Positions 1-24,823 of a stretch of 24,823 nucleotides of DNA are shown here, piece by piece. The notes under the pieces were generated by a model. It had not been told where the DNA came from, did not search any database, and saw only the letters and a program-made list of their open reading frames with translations. The stretch comes from a virus. The stretch covers positions 1 to 24,823 of the IMG/VR virus record IMGVR_UViG_3300046514_000096. One strand, written 5' to 3'. How positions within the stretch are numbered: the stretch's first letter is position 1; each line of letters starts with the position of its first letter. The translations under genes and the position numbers were made by a program.

Positions 1-522
1 TGCAACAATATGCTTTCTATCTTCAGGACTATAAAAGTAAGTATCATGAATTTTTCCATTCATGTCGACAGTAAAAAAGGTTCTTTGTATTCCTAGCTTA
101 TTGTCTATTGTTGGGCATAAAAAAGTTAAGGAATAAGGAACTTCATCTCCTAAATATGAAATTAATTTATGAGTTTTAACTCCTCCTGGTAATTCATTCA
201 TTCTTTTAGCGTGTAAAATAGTTAAATATTCATTTTTAGCAAAAGTAATTCTTTTTTCATCATCAGGTAACGGTTTCCAAGTAATAGATACTTCAGCTGG
301 AAATCCATCTACTTTGACTTGTAATTCATCCGATAAAAACCCTCTATCATCAGGAGAAAAATAACAACCAAATTTTCTGATTTTTAACAATTCTTTTTCA
401 TTCACTTTGAATTGACGAGGATAGTATTTATTTTCTTTTGCTTCATTTGTTTCATATAAAGCAATTAAGCCACGTGTAACTAAATCCTCAAACTCTTCTT
501 TATCCCAGTAACCTTCTTGCAT
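1..522 (-). CDS. Hypothetical protein, cut by the left edge of the window
   Basis: The frame starts at an ATG at 522-520 and stays open for 174 codons to base 1, so the C-terminus lies outside the window. The protein begins MQEGYWDKEEFEDLV and is charged and soluble-looking, with no membrane segment or signal peptide. I recognise no family. The start codon overlaps the stop of the upstream gene by one base (TGATG), and GGAG lies upstream inside that gene, which is typical of translational coupling in a phage operon. The lack of any stop over 522 bases of AT-rich DNA supports real coding. It is the last visible member of the small-gene cluster that starts at 3320. Function unknown. Confidence 0.75.
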   Translation of the reverse strand, partial: MQEGYWDKEEFEDLVTRGLIALYETNEAKENKYYPRQFKVNEKELLKIRKFGCYFSPDDRGFLSDELQVKVDGFPAEVSITWKPLPDDEKRITFAKNEYLTILHAKRMNELPGGVKTHKLISYLGDEVPYSLTFLCPTIDNKLGIQRTFFTVDMNGKIHDTYFYSPEDRKHIVA

Positions 523-716
523 CAATTCAACTCCTTATATTTCATTTCCATCATTAGTCTAGCTTCCCATATGTCTTTACAATAGAAAGGATCAAAAATA
601 CCTTTTACCCAAGGCATTTGCTCAAAGTTGCGTATCGTTCTATCGTCAGTGTAACGCTTAACTGTTATCTTGCCTTGATCATCTAAATACCCCCAGAATA
701 ATAATTTAAGTGTCAT
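522..716 (-). CDS. Hypothetical small protein, 64 aa
   Basis: Short protein beginning MTLKLLFWGYLDDQGK, with several aromatic residues (YCKDIWEARLMMEMKY near the C-terminus). No recognisable domain. It starts in an ATGA overlap with the gene at 713-967 and has a good GGGAGGG ribosome binding site inside that gene's last codons. Its stop overlaps the next start by one base. Coupling on both sides supports expression as part of the operon. Function unknown. Confidence 0.65.
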   Translation of the reverse strand: MTLKLLFWGYLDDQGKITVKRYTDDRTIRNFEQMPWVKGIFDPFYCKDIWEARLMMEMKYKELN

Positions 717-967
717 TCAAACCCTCCCTTAACTACTTTAATTTTAAACCCCGCTAATTCATGAATCGGTGCAAGTGCAGGATGGAAAAACATTTCATTA
801 ATATTACGTATAAGATGAAACTCTTGCTCTTTAGTAAGCAAAACATATTTTTCAATTTTATCGCTATCTAAATAACATTCCATCATTTGATGATGCAGTC
901 GTAAGAAGTCATCCATTATCGGATAATCTTTCTCTAGTATGAAATATACTTTTAACTTATCTTTCAT
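713..967 (-). CDS. Hypothetical small protein, 84 aa
   Basis: Protein beginning MKDKLKVYFILEKDYPIMDD; a mixed alpha/beta pattern is likely, with no membrane segment and no motif I can name. The start lies 11 bases inside the end of the upstream gene (957-1154), and the stop overlaps the next start as ATGA. No strong ribosome binding site is visible, so its translation probably depends on ribosomes finishing the upstream gene. Unknown function within the small-gene operon. Confidence 0.65.
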   Translation of the reverse strand: MKDKLKVYFILEKDYPIMDDFLRLHHQMMECYLDSDKIEKYVLLTKEQEFHLIRNINEMFFHPALAPIHELAGFKIKVVKGGFE

Positions 968-1154
968 TCTGCTTGTTCCATTTATTCAATTGACGAATTG
1001 TCCATGTTATTTCCTGCGTGATTAAATCAATTTGTCCTGTGCAGTCTGGCCAGTTTGGTAACTCAAATGTACGCATTAAATTCTCTAATAATGCCTCTAA
1101 TCTATCTTTTAACCAGAAGTTTCTTGTTTGTACTATGCCAGTAGTTTTAAGCAT
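957..1154 (-). CDS. Hypothetical small protein, 65 aa
   Basis: I chose the ATG at 1154 over a GTG two codons upstream (1160) because GGAG sits 7 bases before the ATG. The protein begins MLKTTGIVQTRNFW and is rich in Leu, Trp and Asn, with a helical look (LKDRLEALLENLM). No family recognised. It lies 13 bases after the gene at 1168-1500 and overlaps the next gene by 11 bases. A plus-strand frame across 1018-1311 is its shadow. Confidence 0.6.
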   Translation of the reverse strand: MLKTTGIVQTRNFWLKDRLEALLENLMRTFELPNWPDCTGQIDLITQEITWTIRQLNKWNKQNER

Positions 1155-1167
1155 CCTCACACTCCAC

Positions 1168-1500
1168 TTAATTAAACTCCAAATGTCTTTTCTCTCTAAT
1201 CATTTGACAGTAGTCGAGCATTTCTTTTATGTCTTGATATACATCCTCTATTTGCTGTTTCTGATGTTTTATAAATTCATTCGCTTTCTCATCATTCAGT
1301 TTAGAGCATGATATTAATGCACATGCAGACCATATCGTAGCGTTAAAGCTTCCCATACACTCTTTCATACTCATAATCGAATCAAGAGGAGCACCTTCGC
1401 ATGTCATCGCATGTATTGCACTAATGATAGATTTTTCCATTACACCCAATCTCTCTTCCATTGAGTTTAAATCATGTGCGTCTATTCGTGTTGTTTTCAT
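1168..1500 (-). CDS. Hypothetical helical protein, 110 aa
   Basis: Begins MKTTRIDAHDLNSMEERLG. The sequence reads as a bundle of amphipathic helices with a charged C-terminal helix (around residues 75-105), so a helical or coiled-coil oligomer is plausible, but no family is recognised. The ATG directly follows the TAG of the 34-aa ORF upstream. The AAGGAAAG that serves as its ribosome binding site lies within that small ORF. Function unknown. Confidence 0.7.
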   Translation of the reverse strand: MKTTRIDAHDLNSMEERLGVMEKSIISAIHAMTCEGAPLDSIMSMKECMGSFNATIWSACALISCSKLNDEKANEFIKHQKQQIEDVYQDIKEMLDYCQMIREKRHLEFN

Positions 1501-1605
1501 CTAACACTTTCCTTTTTCATGTATGTTTCCGCATTTAGAACAGCGATAGTAGCCTAATAGCTTATGCAGATATTTCATATAATATCCCGCAACATCGTGA
1601 TGCAT
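1501..1605 (-). CDS. Mini zinc-finger-like ORF, 34 aa
   Basis: A very short frame, ending at TAG 1503-1501, that overlaps the 3' end of the 110-aa gene upstream in another frame. Possible starts are ATG 1605 (34 aa) and ATG 1578 (25 aa); the second has GGGA about 7 bases upstream and may be the real one. The C-terminal part reads YYRCSKCGNIHEKGKC, with C22, C25, H29 and C34 set out like one half of a zinc ribbon. It abuts the next gene without a gap and carries that gene's ribosome binding site. The cysteine pattern and tight junction suggest real coding. It could instead be only a leader for the next gene. Confidence 0.5.
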   Translation of the reverse strand: MHHDVAGYYMKYLHKLLGYYRCSKCGNIHEKGKC

Positions 1606-1894
1606 ATGTTTGAGCACCTAAATTCTCTGCCCAATTTAATTTTGCGTTGCAATTCTTGCAATGCGATTGCCTGCGATTCGTTCTCAGATAATCTTGCGCA
1701 TCGTTTATATGTTCGCTTGTTACTTTTGGCGTTGGATAAACTGGTTCATCTAGCCCATTATATTCGTTGCAATACTTAACTATATCCTCGCATCTTCCTT
1801 GAATATATAGAATATCGTTATTATCGCTTTCCCTTAAAAGATTAAGCTCATTCTTAATCAATACTCTTAATTCATAGTGTGTTAGTTTTCTCAT
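1562..1894 (-). CDS. Hypothetical protein with C-terminal cysteine motif, 110 aa
   Basis: Begins MRKLTHYELRVLIKNELN. The first 75 residues are probably helical. The C-terminal third carries C79-x2-C82 and C101-C102, separated by about 18 residues, consistent with a small zinc ribbon, as in many phage DNA- or protein-binding accessory proteins. Binding of zinc is inference from cysteine spacing. The start overlaps the stop of the preceding gene as ATGA. The 3' end overlaps the 34-aa ORF, which also carries a CxxC. Function unknown. Confidence 0.65.
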   Translation of the reverse strand: MRKLTHYELRVLIKNELNLLRESDNNDILYIQGRCEDIVKYCNEYNGLDEPVYPTPKVTSEHINDAQDYLRTNRRQSHCKNCNAKLNWAENLGAQTYASRCCGILYEISA

Positions 1895-2169
1895 TTAATT
1901 AATTCCTTTTGTTTCGCTATTTCAATCATTTTATCAATAAATGGTTTTAGCATTTTACACATTGCCTCTTGTACTTCTCCACCAAATGCTTCGTATCTAT
2001 CTTCTAATTCAGTGGCAGTCATAGGTTGTTTATAATTACCAAATTCTCTTTTGTGGCCACATCTTTCACATTTAAAGATAATATCTGGCTCTACATCATT
2101 GTAATAAAGCGCGTATGGCATTTGGCATTTTAAACAAAGATGTGTGTGACATGTTAGGTGTGTACTCAT
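1891..2169 (-). CDS. Small zinc-ribbon-like protein, 92 aa
   Basis: Begins MSTHLTCHTHLCLKCQM. Two CxxC knuckles, C12-x2-C15 and C34-x2-C37 followed by GHK, are about 18 residues apart. This is the classic zinc-ribbon arrangement. A helical, Lys- and Glu-rich tail follows (residues about 50-92). Such ribbons bind nucleic acid or protein, but the target cannot be read here. The start overlaps the upstream stop by one base (TAATG), and the end overlaps the next gene as ATGA. Confidence 0.7.
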   Translation of the reverse strand: MSTHLTCHTHLCLKCQMPYALYYNDVEPDIIFKCERCGHKREFGNYKQPMTATELEDRYEAFGGEVQEAMCKMLKPFIDKMIEIAKQKELIK

Positions 2170-2414
2170 TATTTAAACCCTTTCTTAATCGGACGGTAAT
2201 GTTTATAAATCATTGCGCCTAATTCATCATGTAAGCTAGCAAGAGTATATTCCATCACAACACGTTCTTTTTCTGAATAAAGACATTCAAGACTTCTTTT
2301 TAACTTGTATATCTCTTCTATCGCAACTTCGATTCCTTTAAACAATCCTTCCTGATAAGTTCTATCTGTTTCCATTATTTGTGTTGCTGTTGGATATTCT
2401 AAATCCTTACTCAC
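2169..2414 (-). CDS. Hypothetical helical protein, 81 aa, GTG start
   Basis: Starts at a GTG that overlaps the upstream stop by four bases (GTGA); GGGAGAG lies about 10 bases upstream within the 77-aa gene. The protein begins MSKDLEYPTATQIMETD and then forms what looks like a long helix (GIEVAIEEIYKLKRSLECL), ending in a basic tail, KHYRPIKKGFK. No family recognised. Its coupling to both neighbours makes it a credible operon member. Confidence 0.65.
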   Translation of the reverse strand: MSKDLEYPTATQIMETDRTYQEGLFKGIEVAIEEIYKLKRSLECLYSEKERVVMEYTLASLHDELGAMIYKHYRPIKKGFK

Positions 2415-2644
2415 ACCATCTCTCCCTCTTCTTTATTATTGAATTTTTCCAGCATTTTTAAAGCTTCATCCTCTGTGTAATCATCCTTGTTCATCCAAAT
2501 TACTTTCCTTTTATCTTTTCTATGAATTATTAAAAAATGCTCATTTTCTTTTATTAAAACATATCTATTCTTTAACCATTCTAGTGTGTCTCTTTGAGAG
2601 CGCACAAATCCTTTTATTATTTCTGCATCGGTTAATTCACTCAT
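2411..2644 (-). CDS. Hypothetical small protein, 77 aa
   Basis: Begins MSELTDAEIIKGFVRSQRD. It is charged, with a central beta-like stretch (YVLIKENEHFLIIHRKD) and an acidic, helical C-terminus. No motif recognised. A GGGAGAGAGG ribosome binding site lies in the 12-base spacer after the J-domain gene. The stop overlaps the GTG of the next gene. Function unknown. Confidence 0.65.
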   Translation of the reverse strand: MSELTDAEIIKGFVRSQRDTLEWLKNRYVLIKENEHFLIIHRKDKRKVIWMNKDDYTEDEALKMLEKFNNKEEGEMV

Positions 2645-2656
2645 CCTCTCTCTCCC

Positions 2657-3157
2657 TTAAGCAGCTATTCGATTATAAGATTTACCCTTCACGCTCACAC
2701 TACCGTGCGAACTCCGTATCTCATCCATACTAAACTTACCTCTACCCTTGCTCTTGCACCCTTCAGGCTTCCACATCCACATAAGCTTCTTCGGTGCCCA
2801 TCTATACCCTGATTCTTTCAATACTTCCTTGTGTGGCTTAGTATCTCCACTTACCCATATCCACGTACCACATACTTCAATTGTCAATCCCAAGTGAATT
2901 ATCGCATTCAGTGCTGCGTTTATCTCATCACCCAGATTTAACTCTTCTTCCATCTCTACATTAATCTCATCACTCGCAACGTAGTCCTGCAAGCTCATCC
3001 ACGCTGCGTTAACTAATTTCATCATCTCTAATCCCGCTGGATTCCGGTCAGGATGATATTTACTGCTTGCTCTCCTGTACGCTGCCTTAATCTCTTCAAA
3101 GCTCGCACTTCTTCCCAACTCCAACACGCCTAACGCTTCGTTATGTCTCATTTTCAT
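2657..3157 (-). CDS. J-domain (DnaJ-like) phage protein, 166 aa
   Basis: The N-terminal ~60 residues form a J-domain: helix II (SFEEIKAAYRRASSKY) leads into the HPD signature at residues 35-37, followed by RNPAG and helix III (MMKLVNAAW). J-domains stimulate the ATPase of Hsp70/DnaK, so the protein probably recruits host DnaK to a client. Instead of the Gly/Phe and zinc regions of true DnaJ, residues about 83-140 form a second, aromatic-rich domain (CGTWIWVSGDTKPH, then GYRWAPKKLMWMWKPEG). I have the impression this domain accompanies J-domains in other phage and plasmid proteins, but its role is unknown to me. ATG 3157 was chosen over GTG 3166 because GGGAG lies 8 bases upstream. The gene looks less AT-rich than the genes that follow it, by eye, which could mean separate acquisition. 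Confidence 0.85.
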   Translation of the reverse strand: MKMRHNEALGVLELGRSASFEEIKAAYRRASSKYHPDRNPAGLEMMKLVNAAWMSLQDYVASDEINVEMEEELNLGDEINAALNAIIHLGLTIEVCGTWIWVSGDTKPHKEVLKESGYRWAPKKLMWMWKPEGCKSKGRGKFSMDEIRSSHGSVSVKGKSYNRIAA

Positions 3158-3179
3158 CCCGCACACTCCCTATCATCAA

Positions 3180-3320
3180 TTAATTAGATTCGTACCATAT
3201 CCACGCTTCGTAGTTATCAAACATCCACCAACCACTCGCTGCCTTGCTCATGTACTTAGCCCATGGGCACAACTCCTTCGCTTCCTGTCTGCATTCAACA
3301 TCTACATGTACTACTTTCAT
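3180..3320 (-). CDS. Small ORF, 46 aa, first gene of the accessory cluster
   Basis: ATG at 3320-3318 with GGGAGAG about 5 bases upstream; stop TAA at 3182-3180. The protein begins MKVVHVDVECRQEAKEL and has an unusual, Trp/Tyr-rich C-terminus (GWWMFDNYEAWIWYESN). No family recognised. It is the first frame after the promoter-like sequence at 3359-3387, and 22 bases separate it from the J-domain gene. Ribosome binding site, position and spacing support it. Its shared Trp richness with the neighbouring J-domain protein hints at, but does not show, a joint function. Confidence 0.6.
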   Translation of the reverse strand: MKVVHVDVECRQEAKELCPWAKYMSKAASGWWMFDNYEAWIWYESN

Positions 3321-3358
3321 ACTCACTCTCCCTATCAGTTATTCTTAACAACACGATC

Positions 3359-3387
3359 ATGCTAATCTGTTCTATGCGATTAGTCAA
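3359..3387 (-). promoter_or_regulatory. Sigma70-like promoter with internal inverted repeat
   Basis: On the minus strand, TTGACT (3387-3382) and TAGCAT (3364-3359) are separated by exactly 17 bases, matching -35 and -10 boxes at 5/6 and 4/6. A perfect inverted repeat, CTAATC ... GATTAG (3383-3378 and 3367-3362), overlaps the edges of both boxes, so a dimeric repressor could block polymerase. The first gene starts 39 bases downstream of the -10. A second imperfect palindrome (GTTGTTAAGAATAAC) lies just downstream of the expected start of transcription. No regulator gene is seen in the window. Confidence 0.6.
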
Positions 3388-3505
3388 CACTCTTTCGCAA
3401 CTATTTCAACACAACTCAATCGGAACACAACACATCACTGATCCCGCGCTCCTTATATGCCAAACCAAAAAAACGTCATTTCTACACACTTTTTCTAAAT
3501 TCAGA

Positions 3506-3541
3506 GGGGGGTATAAACCGGGGACAGGGGGGTGAGTTGGG
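3506..3541 (+). other. Cluster of four G-runs (possible G-quadruplex)
   Basis: Runs of 6, 4, 6 and 3 G lie at 3506-3511, 3520-3523, 3527-3532 and 3539-3541, with loops of 8, 3 and 6 bases. This is close to the usual quadruplex rule but with one loop a base too long. It stands out in otherwise AT-rich DNA. The minus-strand transcript would carry the C-runs, so any quadruplex would form in DNA, on the plus strand. Confidence 0.45.
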
Positions 3542-3565
3542 ATTCCGGTGCCCCGCAACTCTCCC
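3530..3565 (-). other. Strong hairpin downstream of the large terminase
   Basis: GGG (3530-3532) pairs with CCC (3563-3565); after a T.T mismatch, GAGTTG (3534-3539) pairs with CAACTC (3556-3561); after a one-base bulge, GG (3540-3541) pairs with CC (3553-3554), closing an 11-base loop. That is 11 base pairs in all, mostly GC. No T-run follows on the minus strand, so it is not a standard intrinsic terminator. It could slow or protect late transcripts, or be part of a packaging site. Confidence 0.5.
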
Positions 3566-3703
3566 ATGCATCCTGACAGCTCGAAGTGAGGCTAATTGCG
3601 TATAAAATTCAAGAACGTCTGCCAACGTGCATGTGCCGTCGTTCGTAATCTTCCTATTATTAGACGGATTTTGTTGTGAGGTTATTATTGCTTGCGGGAA
3701 TAG

Positions 3704-3734
3704 CGGAGGTTTCACGGAGGTTTCACGGAGGTTT
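3704..3734. repeat. 11-bp tandem direct repeat, about 2.8 copies
   Basis: The unit CGGAGGTTTCA occurs at 3704-3714 and 3715-3725, with a partial third copy CGGAGGTTT at 3726-3734. It lies 13 bases past the stop of the large terminase. On the plus strand each copy contains GGAGG, but no start codon follows, so these are not working ribosome binding sites. The repeat may be a protein-binding array or a simple slippage product. Confidence 0.7.
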
Positions 3735-3747
3735 AGTTGCCTTCGTT

Positions 3748-5004
3748 CTACCCAGACGTGTACTTCACCGGGGCCTGCGGAATATCGTATAAGCGTCGAT
3801 AGTTAAGTGCGAGATAACGTACTGCGTCAGCTATATGAGTAGCCCAGTTATCGAGAGGGTGCTTGCTATAGCTTCCTGTTTGCTCTTTGTAAAGTCTCTG
3901 ATATTCTCTTAATGCACGCAGAAGAAGCTGGCAATTAACCTTGTCGATTCTTAGGCGCGGGAACATGTATCGTACTGCTTCGATACCATCTTCGAAGTTA
4001 ACTTTAGGGACTACCTGCAATTGCCATCCATGCTTTCTTGCTTGCATTATTCTTGACTCCGTATGCTCCCAACCTTGGTGCTCTTGCTTCACATCGTGTG
4101 GCATCCAGTGGTGTCCCCACGCGCAACCAATTGAACGTCGTATCATCTCAGCCTGTTCGAGATAGTATTTTAGCCCTTTGCCAGTATCATGTAAGAGATG
4201 CAACAGGTGTACGTATCGCCCAACGATTTGGAAAAGGATACCCGCAGTTGCATCCGTTCCGCCCAGGTCCCATATACTGTGTAGAGGTAGACTAGGATCA
4301 GGCTTAAGCATCATGACTCTGCCTTCACGCTCCATGTCGCTTATTTCTCTAGTATAGTAAGCACCTAAGTTACCTACTTCAAAATCAACGTAGAACTCCT
4401 GTCGAATCATTTCTTCAGACATGCCAAGATCACGTGCACGCCTGATATCATCTTCGGTGATAATGCGAGTACCATCATGCTTAAATGTTTGCTCTACACT
4501 GAGATGTTCAACATGATAGTCAGGTAAATCTTTTACTTGCTGGAATACTTCATACCCGTGATTCATTCCTCTGGGTGTGTACTGCAGGATTTCTTTTCCT
4601 TTGTTCTGTACAAGAATAGGATTGAGATACTGACGAGCAAGGGGATTATGCAAACTAAACTCTGAATAAATAATGGTGACCGGATTCGTTCCCATAAGAC
4701 CATCATAATTATTACTCCCTGCGAGAATAAGTTTTGAACCATTGAACATATCAATTTCCATACGGGCTTCGTTCTTTCGATCAATCAAAGCCTCTGGTAT
4801 AGCCTTCATGAAAGGCTTGCCATCGAAATCCATTCCTTGCCATATTACTTGTCGTGCTTGTTTAAATAACGGAAATAAATATACATGAGTTCCAATTCGT
4901 TTTAATCCACGCAGTGTCCATCCTTCTAGGCAAAATATGTCCTTTCCGGCACGGCGATGCACTACTGCACATATATTTTTATCATCAAGCAATGCTTTAA
5001 ACAT
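3748..5004 (-). CDS. Phage terminase large subunit (ATPase/nuclease)
   Basis: The motor that cuts concatemeric DNA and drives it into the prohead through the portal. Numbering from the ATG at 5004: Walker A variant HRRAGKD at 16-22; Walker B TIIYSEF at 110-116 with catalytic E115; coupling motif YTPRG at 142-146; RNase H-type nuclease motif WDLGGTDATA at 245-254 (D246, D251) and late acidic motif HIADAVRY around 390-397 (D393). Both enzyme domains are therefore intact. The start is a problem: the ATG lies only 15 residues before Walker A, and the same frame upstream reads PYPHQAR, the likely adenine-binding Gln motif. The true N-terminus is probably upstream even though no ATG, GTG or TTG exists there (see 5005-5055). 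The gene ends the late operon. Confidence 0.9.
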   Translation of the reverse strand: MFKALLDDKNICAVVHRRAGKDIFCLEGWTLRGLKRIGTHVYLFPLFKQARQVIWQGMDFDGKPFMKAIPEALIDRKNEARMEIDMFNGSKLILAGSNNYDGLMGTNPVTIIYSEFSLHNPLARQYLNPILVQNKGKEILQYTPRGMNHGYEVFQQVKDLPDYHVEHLSVEQTFKHDGTRIITEDDIRRARDLGMSEEMIRQEFYVDFEVGNLGAYYTREISDMEREGRVMMLKPDPSLPLHSIWDLGGTDATAGILFQIVGRYVHLLHLLHDTGKGLKYYLEQAEMIRRSIGCAWGHHWMPHDVKQEHQGWEHTESRIMQARKHGWQLQVVPKVNFEDGIEAVRYMFPRLRIDKVNCQLLLRALREYQRLYKEQTGSYSKHPLDNWATHIADAVRYLALNYRRLYDIPQAPVKYTSG

Positions 5005-23704: not shown

Positions 23705-23839
23705 CTATATCCAGATATGAACATATATTGTTTTCTCAGCGAATTCATGCGGTTCAATCTTTCGATCAACGTAAACAATCCGCCAAGGTATGCGGATCTT
23801 TTTACGGAGTTCTTTTATCTGCGAAAGTATTGTTGCCAT
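23705..23839 (-). CDS. Small overlapping ORF, 44 aa
   Basis: The ATG at 23839 lies 38 bases inside the 3' end of the TerS-like gene in another frame; the stop TAG is at 23707-23705. The product begins MATILSQIKELRKKIRIP, with WRIVYVDRKIEPHEFAEK and a YVHIWI end. It is basic and plausibly folded, and it fills an otherwise empty 108-base gap ending 11 bases before the next gene. An AGAG sequence lies 7 bases upstream of the ATG. No family named. Its protein-like composition and operon fit argue for a real gene. Confidence 0.6.
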   Translation of the reverse strand: MATILSQIKELRKKIRIPWRIVYVDRKIEPHEFAEKTIYVHIWI

Positions 23840-24413
23840 TAGAATTCTCTTTCATGACTGCCAAGTCTGCTTTCAACTGGTCAATCTCTTTCTGTAATTC
23901 AAATGCCTGATGTGCGCTCATGCCTATATTTACAGCTTCCATTAACTGCTTAATTTCACCGGCTGTAAAGTCACCTGATGCAGCTTGTTTAAGCAGTTGT
24001 GAATAGTGTTCGTTTGGCTTTGCATTGGGATCAAGAGTAAGTCTGATACGTGAGTTCTTTCCTATACCGAATCGTGACCACCCTATCATCTTCCAGTATT
24101 CAAACTTGTTATTTGTGGTTCCCGGAAGATTTATCTCGTCTTTGATCTCACGACCCATCCGTTCCCAGTTCTCTCTGGAAAACATCTTGGCGAGACAGTA
24201 GCATTCGAGAAATAGTTCATATTTATTTAACCATTCATAGAAAGTGCAATCGGGAATCATGGATTCCACACAGAAAGCACTATAGGTTCCCTTCTCTGGA
24301 TTTGACATGATTGTCAGAACTAAAGCGCAATGCTTTGCTTCATCATATCCATCATGGCCAGCTTCTCTCTTTTCCTTTAATTTTTTGTATATCGCAAGAC
24401 CGTCAATTGCCAT
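23802..24413 (-). CDS. Terminase small subunit-like DNA-packaging protein, 203 aa
   Basis: Small terminases recognise the packaging site and hand DNA to the large subunit. The N-terminal half has the expected helix-turn-helix: residues about 41-72 read TYSAFCVESMIPDCTFYEWL followed by NKYELFLECY, close to the TFYxWL pattern of TerS proteins. A middle WKMIGWSRFGIGKNSRI segment is followed by GDFTAGEIKQLMEA (137-150) and a coiled coil (about 153-178), which could make the oligomer ring. It is the first gene of the late operon, while its partner, the large subunit, lies at the far end. AAAGG lies 7 bases before the ATG. It could instead be another HTH packaging or regulatory protein. Confidence 0.68.
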   Translation of the reverse strand: MAIDGLAIYKKLKEKREAGHDGYDEAKHCALVLTIMSNPEKGTYSAFCVESMIPDCTFYEWLNKYELFLECYCLAKMFSRENWERMGREIKDEINLPGTTNNKFEYWKMIGWSRFGIGKNSRIRLTLDPNAKPNEHYSQLLKQAASGDFTAGEIKQLMEAVNIGMSAHQAFELQKEIDQLKADLAVMKENSNGNNTFADKRTP

Positions 24414-24475: not shown

Positions 24476-24823
24476 ATGCTGGACGCTGCACAACTCAAGC
24501 AACTAATCATCAAGCCAGCACTCACCGATTTAAATCTTTATAGCGAAGAAGCTGCCACTTTATTGCTTTTTACCTGCGCTGTCGAATCTGTTGGTGGAAC
24601 TTATATTCATCAAGTTAATGGCCCTGCTCTTGGTATCTACCAAATGGAACCAGCAACTTATAATGATATATGGGTTAACTTCATCGCTCACAGACAAGCT
24701 CTAAAGCTGCAGCTACTCCATAACTTCAATGCACCTGTCATGCCCGATGAACTCAGGATGATATACGATCTTAGATTCGCAACCGCAATGGCAAGACTTC
24801 ATTATCTGAGAATCCCTGAAGTT
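24476..24823 (+). CDS. Lysozyme/transglycosylase-like phage protein, N-terminal 116 aa
   Basis: The only plus-strand gene recognised; it is cut by the right edge after 116 codons. Begins MLDAAQLKQLIIKPALTDL. The block TCAVESVGGTYIHQ (E37) followed by GPALGIYQMEPATYNDIW (49-66) has the form of a lysozyme-fold muramidase: a catalytic Glu at a helix end, then a G-x-G-xx-QM loop as in transglycosylases. It would cleave peptidoglycan in lysis or DNA entry. AAGGAA lies 9 bases before the ATG, and a promoter-like sequence is upstream. The ejection proteins in this window lack such a domain, which may make this gene more important. Activity is inferred. Confidence 0.6.
   Translation, partial: MLDAAQLKQLIIKPALTDLNLYSEEAATLLLFTCAVESVGGTYIHQVNGPALGIYQMEPATYNDIWVNFIAHRQALKLQLLHNFNAPVMPDELRMIYDLRFATAMARLHYLRIPEV

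Follow-up and report, generated by a model that had tools for sequence, protein, structure and literature searches.

A conserved element in inverted repeats around the late module of T7-like phages, and its reading as a candidate genome-end signal

In phage T7, the genome end lies between the terminase and the early genes, with the early promoters following it, and near the left ends of T7, T3, SP6, gh-1, phiKMV, Syn5 and the Zobellviridae VpV262, ICBM1 and ICBM2 a C-run, a short spacer and then a run of G or C occur 21-29 nt from the end. In cobaviruses, terminal repeats located with PacBio reads likewise open with a conserved G+C-rich region (PMC6775973). In herpes simplex virus, two unique segments are parted by inverted repeats, each of which contains an end signal; pac1 is described as an A/T-rich stretch between C-rich ones, within the a sequence (PMC10763189), and isomerisation has been tied to recombination, for which an exonuclease acting with an annealing protein has been proposed (PMC3415443). 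Among podoviruses, the record of Roseophage SIO1 (NC_002519) has an inverted repeat, with 1398 bp aligned at 97.9% (19-1415 and 3249-4636); in the literature searched, which left most subscription journals outside, no further phage with such repeats or isomers was found, and PMC4909266 deals with a transposon region. Unlike the repeats described below, the SIO1 copies stand about 1.8 kb apart and do not flank the late module, and later authors deemed them a probable misassembly (PMC6775973); they deserve a fresh look beside the present group.

The group considered here consists of uncultured bacterial podoviruses of 32-36 kb and was approached through the virus record IMGVR_UViG_3300046514_000096. 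The whole stretch of that record which was analysed, 24,823 bases and hereafter the window, contains a late module of T7-like type, encoded on the minus strand. Its element occupies the site of the T7 end, with the same order of terminase, end and early promoters. It differs from T7-type ends in three respects: the conserved core, GGCACCGGA, was not found in T7-type phages and is peculiar to this group; the ends are predicted from sequence; and each circular map has two inverted copies of the signal, not one, so that it is at most a variant of a T7-type end. The likeness to herpes simplex virus comprises two unique segments parted by inverted repeats (in six contigs), an end-signal candidate inside each repeat, a C-rich / A-T-rich / C-rich box of the form given for pac1 (PMC10763189), and an exonuclease with a probable annealing protein, the pairing proposed for recombination in that virus (PMC3415443). 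Unlike that virus, the group has host-type early promoters in its repeats; the analogy is one of arrangement and form, and no descent is claimed. We think it probable, with real room for doubt, that the element is a genome-end signal recognised by the terminase of a T7-type podovirus group, present twice in inverted orientation, with flipping between the copies.

A conserved element beside the terminase gene

The large terminase gene is the final gene of the late module; tail and head genes lie beyond it, and a portal-type gene reaches 23259 (Table 1). The gene at the module's opposite end had no family match and, by position and likeness, is a putative small terminase subunit gene. The far-end gene, a phrog_3108 member that may be lysozyme-like, faces the second repeat copy in the related contigs G006 and G010. 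A first, sequence-only reading had placed a cluster of G-runs of 6, 4, 6 and 3 between two operons, and both points were borne out: the terminase gene lies on one side, early-side ORFs of annotated size run from 3166 downward on the other, and the plus strand carries G6 at 3506-3511, G4 at 3520-3523, G6 at 3527-3532 and GGG at 3539-3541. The two G6 runs are the sole G or C runs of at least six in the window. Of 1000 dinucleotide shuffles of the local 1.1 kb, 6 contained a cluster of three runs of at least four within 60 nt, and when the whole window was shuffled the count was 146 of 1000; the cluster is unusual for its location, not extreme in itself.

Table 1. Features of the window around the element and at the two ends of the late module
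Feature	Position	Strand	Remarks
DnaJ-domain protein gene	2657..3166	-	Pfam DnaJ, 2.2e-11; within the repeat; first sizeable gene past the element
One long inverted repeat copy (1155 bp)	2635..3789		stretch shared by window and G010, 99.9% identical
Outward early promoter candidate	3359..3387	-	TTGACT-17-TAGCAT; 9/12 matches, weak in the window
Run of seven T	3467..3473	-	32 nt past the last C-run on the terminase strand
C-run / C-run / GGTTTATA spacer / C-run box	3506..3532	-	the G-runs read on the terminase strand
Conserved core	3540..3565	-	GGGAGAGTTGCGGGGCACCGGAATCC in the window; kept in relatives
Large terminase subunit gene	3748..5004	-	phrog_2, 9.5e-18; final gene of the late module
Putative small terminase subunit gene	23802..24413	-	opposite end of the late module; identity from position
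Far-end gene of the late module, cut by window end	24476..24823	+	phrog_3108, unknown function

Read on the terminase strand, the element consists of a conserved core, GAGAGTTGnnnGGCACCGGA, followed by a C-run, an AT-rich spacer and a C- or G-run. It is this DNA sequence, and not the stem overlapping it, that is conserved; mean pairwise identity in 15-nt windows reached 0.70-0.78 in the core, compared with 0.57 across the C-runs and 0.27-0.54 in the remainder, except for a single gapped upstream window at 0.63. A search pattern derived from the window and two relatives, GTTGNNNGGCACCGGAATCC, matched 11 IMG/VR stretches, eight of them in this group and from five distinct phages, and each of those eight lies next to the 3' end of terminase or to a duplicate of its tail.

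The search set for a profile of 14 aligned elements comprised 46 contigs, one of them the window, together with another three loci and the genomes of six terminase relatives from the databases. Matches at E < 0.05 were obtained in 17 of the 21 terminase contigs with at least 277 nt after the terminase or a repeat copy elsewhere, 13 of the 17 having also trained the profile; the untrained matches were G011 (4e-10) and, weakly, G031, G034 and G032 (5e-4 to 0.016). Core-like sequences are still visible by eye in G031, G032 and G011. G023, G033, G036 and G043 had sufficient sequence and yielded no recognisable element in the profile search, although G036 and G043 carry the repeat; none was recognised in the repeat of G036. 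Among the six database relatives (31-37% identity; four cultured phages and two circular metagenomic genomes), no profile match was better than E 8, and the 9-mer core sequence alone occurred in two. Matching the element's DNA against a phage collection returned three records, all at E about 2, and a pattern scan of a genome collection gave 44 stretches against about 30 expected on a rough estimate, from which no host or prophage link is drawn. A separate contig, L176, matched by 0 of 16 group marker proteins, contains the spacer-and-runs string CCCCGGTTnATACCCCCC at 3227-3244.

Inverted repeats and two arrangements of the genome

The region around the element forms one half of a pair of long inverted repeats of 0.5-1.2 kb, whose two copies stand one at each end of a late module of about 21 kb. 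In the window, the late-side edge of the repeat lies 41 nt inside the terminase 3' end, and the last 42 bases of the gene (3748-3789) are part of the repeat. Among 41 terminase contigs (the terminase relatives plus the window), an inverted repeat pair linking both late-module ends was present within the contig in 24; the inner overlaps were exact in 20 of these 24, at 69-127 nt (11 of them at 119-127 nt), a pattern that, in our reading, assembly graphs breaking at a repeat would leave. Of the 32 contigs with both ends of the late module, 8 showed no repeat within their own sequence (the window, G005, G013, G027, G029, G030, G039 and G042); for the phages of the window and G005 it follows from comparison with other contigs, G005, from another metagenome, being identical to the stretch from repeat edge to repeat edge that forms the late module of G003.

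Six contigs (G003, G014, G015, G016, G028 and G036) each span the late module, a whole repeat copy (487-1193 bp) and the early region, with a repeat edge at either terminus. Despite looking like fragments they hold the full map minus one repeat copy, and the circles they imply measure 31.9-36.4 kb. This is a practical trap: short-read assembly splits such genomes at the repeat, and they resemble fragments; a completeness estimate is absent from the listings for all of these records. An artefact of contig ends was considered and rejected, one copy being internal in many contigs and the copies differing at an edge in four: an edge comparison in G025, G028, G031 and G034 shows 3-6 aligned positions at which one copy departs from the other, so that these are separate copies. 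Contigs stopping within 200 bp after the terminase numbered 28 of 41, versus 0 of 80 pelagiphage controls; an inverted repeat was found in 0 of 80 control loci, a weaker control than the contig ends because these loci extend at most 10 kb either side of the terminase. The six database relatives of the terminase showed no long inverted repeat.

Repeat edges vary from phage to phage, as though repeats could lengthen and shorten. The element and the promoter zone beyond it lie inside the repeat in the six phages for which the element and both repeat edges are known (the window's, G003, G014, G015, G016 and G028). For the pair G001/G007, 0.43 kb is a lower bound on repeat length; their shared stretch ends 109 nt past the core, where both contigs stop, and so does not extend into the promoter zone. 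Copies of the terminase tail, 26-58 codons long, occur at the far end of the late module in G002, G004, G007, G008, G009, G016, L179 and L181, because the repeat extends into the terminase gene.

Two arrangements of the late module relative to the early genes occur in public contigs. G006 corresponds to window positions 1-3789 and then, after 383 nt, to window positions 24821-17968 reversed, the sequences being identical, whereas G010 has the repeat (2635-3789) and the late module in common with the window, plus the other early arm; early arm E lies on the window side and early arm F on the G010 side. These joins mean that the window and G010 fit one arrangement and G006 the other, the same phage being found in both, in contigs from different samples. 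G008 and G009 have 9.6 kb in common at 99.95% and 364 bp at 98.6% with an indel, and past this common stretch they carry different early arms. In all, the early segment runs one way in seven marker-gene contigs (G003, G014, G026, G032, G036, G006 and G009) and the other way in six (G015, G016, G028, G031, G008, and the window with G010 as one). Judged from the contigs, the two halves of the genome can probably flip as in herpes simplex virus; since assemblers may have picked joins at random, the two arrangements are suggestive only.

The same observations admit a second account, in which the inverted repeat is real and the arrangement fixed, contigs that cross the repeat being arbitrary joins made by short-read assemblers and no flipping taking place. 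A near-even split of seven against six is what random joining predicts, and most contigs do stop at the repeat; set against this, one phage appears in both arrangements across different samples, and near-identical copies within one genome would call for exchange between them. We regard a fixed arrangement as a serious contender, though on balance doubtful.

A mark shared with T7-type left ends

The run/spacer/run signature was defined as a C-run of at least four, a spacer of 3-8 nt and a G- or C-run of at least three. Of 10 podovirus records, 9 have it beginning at nt 21-29 from the left end, namely those of the nine phages listed at the outset, and it is absent from the left end of N4; as background, it begins in 0-1.1% of 13-nt windows in seven whole genomes. 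The rule is empirical, having been defined after inspection of T7-type ends, the ten records were hand-picked, and a single family accounts for six of them, so that it is provisional. ICBM3 was left out of the ten because its record lacks a repeat annotation and begins in the opposite orientation. No repeat is annotated in the sequences examined for T7, SP6, N4 and Syn5, whose records are taken to begin at the physical end. In our numbering, the records with the shared mark 21-29 nt from the end are L263, L264, L266-L270, L272 and L273. A thin search of the packaging literature found no statement of such a signature near T7-type ends.

Within the group, 13 of 15 elements, the window's among them, have the signature starting 15-29 nt past the core; G001 and G014 lack it. 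Loss of the G-runs in close relatives had been named as a refuting outcome; retention of the run signature in 13 of 15 aligned relatives speaks against refutation, though the four others noted above have no recognisable element. The suggestion of a packaging or genome-end signal, one of several offered by the sequence-only reading, gains from the conservation of the element between terminase and early genes and from its T7-type end signature, and we infer a T7-type packaging signal with a predicted end in or next to the core, at 3543-3560, this position following from the 21-29 nt offset in T7-type phages.

On this proposal, the terminase strand would be read in the order terminase, core, C-run/AT spacer/run, early promoter and early genes. 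The terminase would recognise the core and the C-runs and cut there. The physical left end would fall inside the core or adjoin it, 20-28 nt ahead of the C-runs, and the direct terminal repeat would extend from that end toward the early genes. The circular map would read late - IR - early - IR'; as the repeat is inverted at the two ends of the late module, both signals would face the early segment, so whichever copy packaging started from, an early arm would stand at the left end of the chromosome. The copies would exchange with each other, probably by means of the RecE-like exonuclease, the likely annealing protein and RusA, and this would invert the segments and prevent the copies from diverging.

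A broader version extends a herpes-simplex-like chromosome to a whole group of tailed phages: each inverted repeat would hold a cutting signal like that of T7 or pac1, facing the early segment, the terminase would use either copy, virions would hold the flip isomers, and an early arm would always lead injection. T7-type phages would then share the run/spacer/run mark near genome ends with herpesvirus pac1, at any rate in its form. We put this forward tentatively, as a reading that falls somewhat short of an even chance. If true, segment flipping of the herpes simplex type exists in tailed phages with a simple recombination kit, open to dissection. The signature also suggests a sequence rule by which T7-type genome ends might be predicted in uncultured phages.

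Early arms, promoters and other roles for the element

The group encodes a RecE-like exonuclease VIII, the phrog_3657 protein, RusA and an O-like initiator. The first two also belong to the window's phage, by way of G010; RusA was found in relatives and not in the known pieces of the window's own phage. A predicted structure for phrog_3657 was of low confidence (mean pLDDT 49.7) and had no significant PDB match, its weak matches among viral models being named RecT, Rad52 and Erf; from this model it is likely an annealing protein. The O-like initiator gene of G003 contains three 22-nt direct repeats spaced 18 nt apart, with two related ones (L022:8662-8761), and given these tandem repeats is likely a lambda-type origin, and the likelier replication origin.

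Promoter-like sites with at least 10 of 12 matches lie 130-191 nt past the core in 8 of 14 phages, against a mean of 0.41 and a maximum of 2 in 200 sets of shuffles; on the opposite strand, 1 of 14 phages reaches 10 matches. In the window itself, the scan returned two promoter-like sites versus 1.5 expected, and its 9/12 site would not stand out alone. The ORFs of both early arms point outward from the repeat. These observations would also suit a regulatory role, in which the element is an operator or enhancer for an outward early promoter 110-200 nt beyond it and the repeat supplies both early arms with the same promoter, packaging playing no part. Such a role would not need a position adjoining the terminase, the distance from core to promoter is long and variable, and the run/spacer/run pattern is that of genome ends; we consider it unlikely.

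Phages Mu and P1 have invertible tail-fibre segments between inverted repeats, together with an invertase gene of their own. By analogy, the element could be a recombination site for site-specific inversion, and a conserved sequence does lie within each repeat copy. In the present group, however, the whole late module is flanked; no site-specific recombinase was found among the 41 early ORFs of G003 and G028, where the scan returned one weak match to a Tc5-transposase tail (E 0.0016), and the repeat edges vary by phage, unlike a crossover at a fixed short site. We judge site-specific inversion very improbable.

The sequence-only reading had also drawn a strong 11-bp stem through the G-runs. 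The stem exists, with arms at 3530-3541 and 3553-3565, but its stability is at the level of shuffles (z -0.33 on the minus strand and +0.32 on the plus strand) and its pairs are lost in relatives, where 54.5% of cells are paired versus 54.0% in shuffles; across ten sequences neither excess pairing nor covariation was detected, and Rfam gave 0 matches for the element. A hairpin or G-quadruplex in DNA or RNA, acting as a pause or in 3'-end protection, is thus the least probable role and scarcely credible, since a drawable stem and the G-runs themselves are offset by pairing at the shuffled level, by four or more C-runs of three within 75 nt of the core in just 6 of 15 elements (the window, G001, G002, G014, G017 and G034), and by a last run that is G rather than C on the terminase strand in G003, G008 and G028. 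The remark that this is not an ordinary terminator was upheld: no terminator-like site, a stem followed immediately by a T-tract, occurs within 3100-3800. In 10 of 15 relatives a T-run of at least five occurs no more than 130 nt from the core. Directly past the terminase stop and still within the repeat, at 3705-3735, a short GGAGGTTTCAC-like unit is present three times in tandem.
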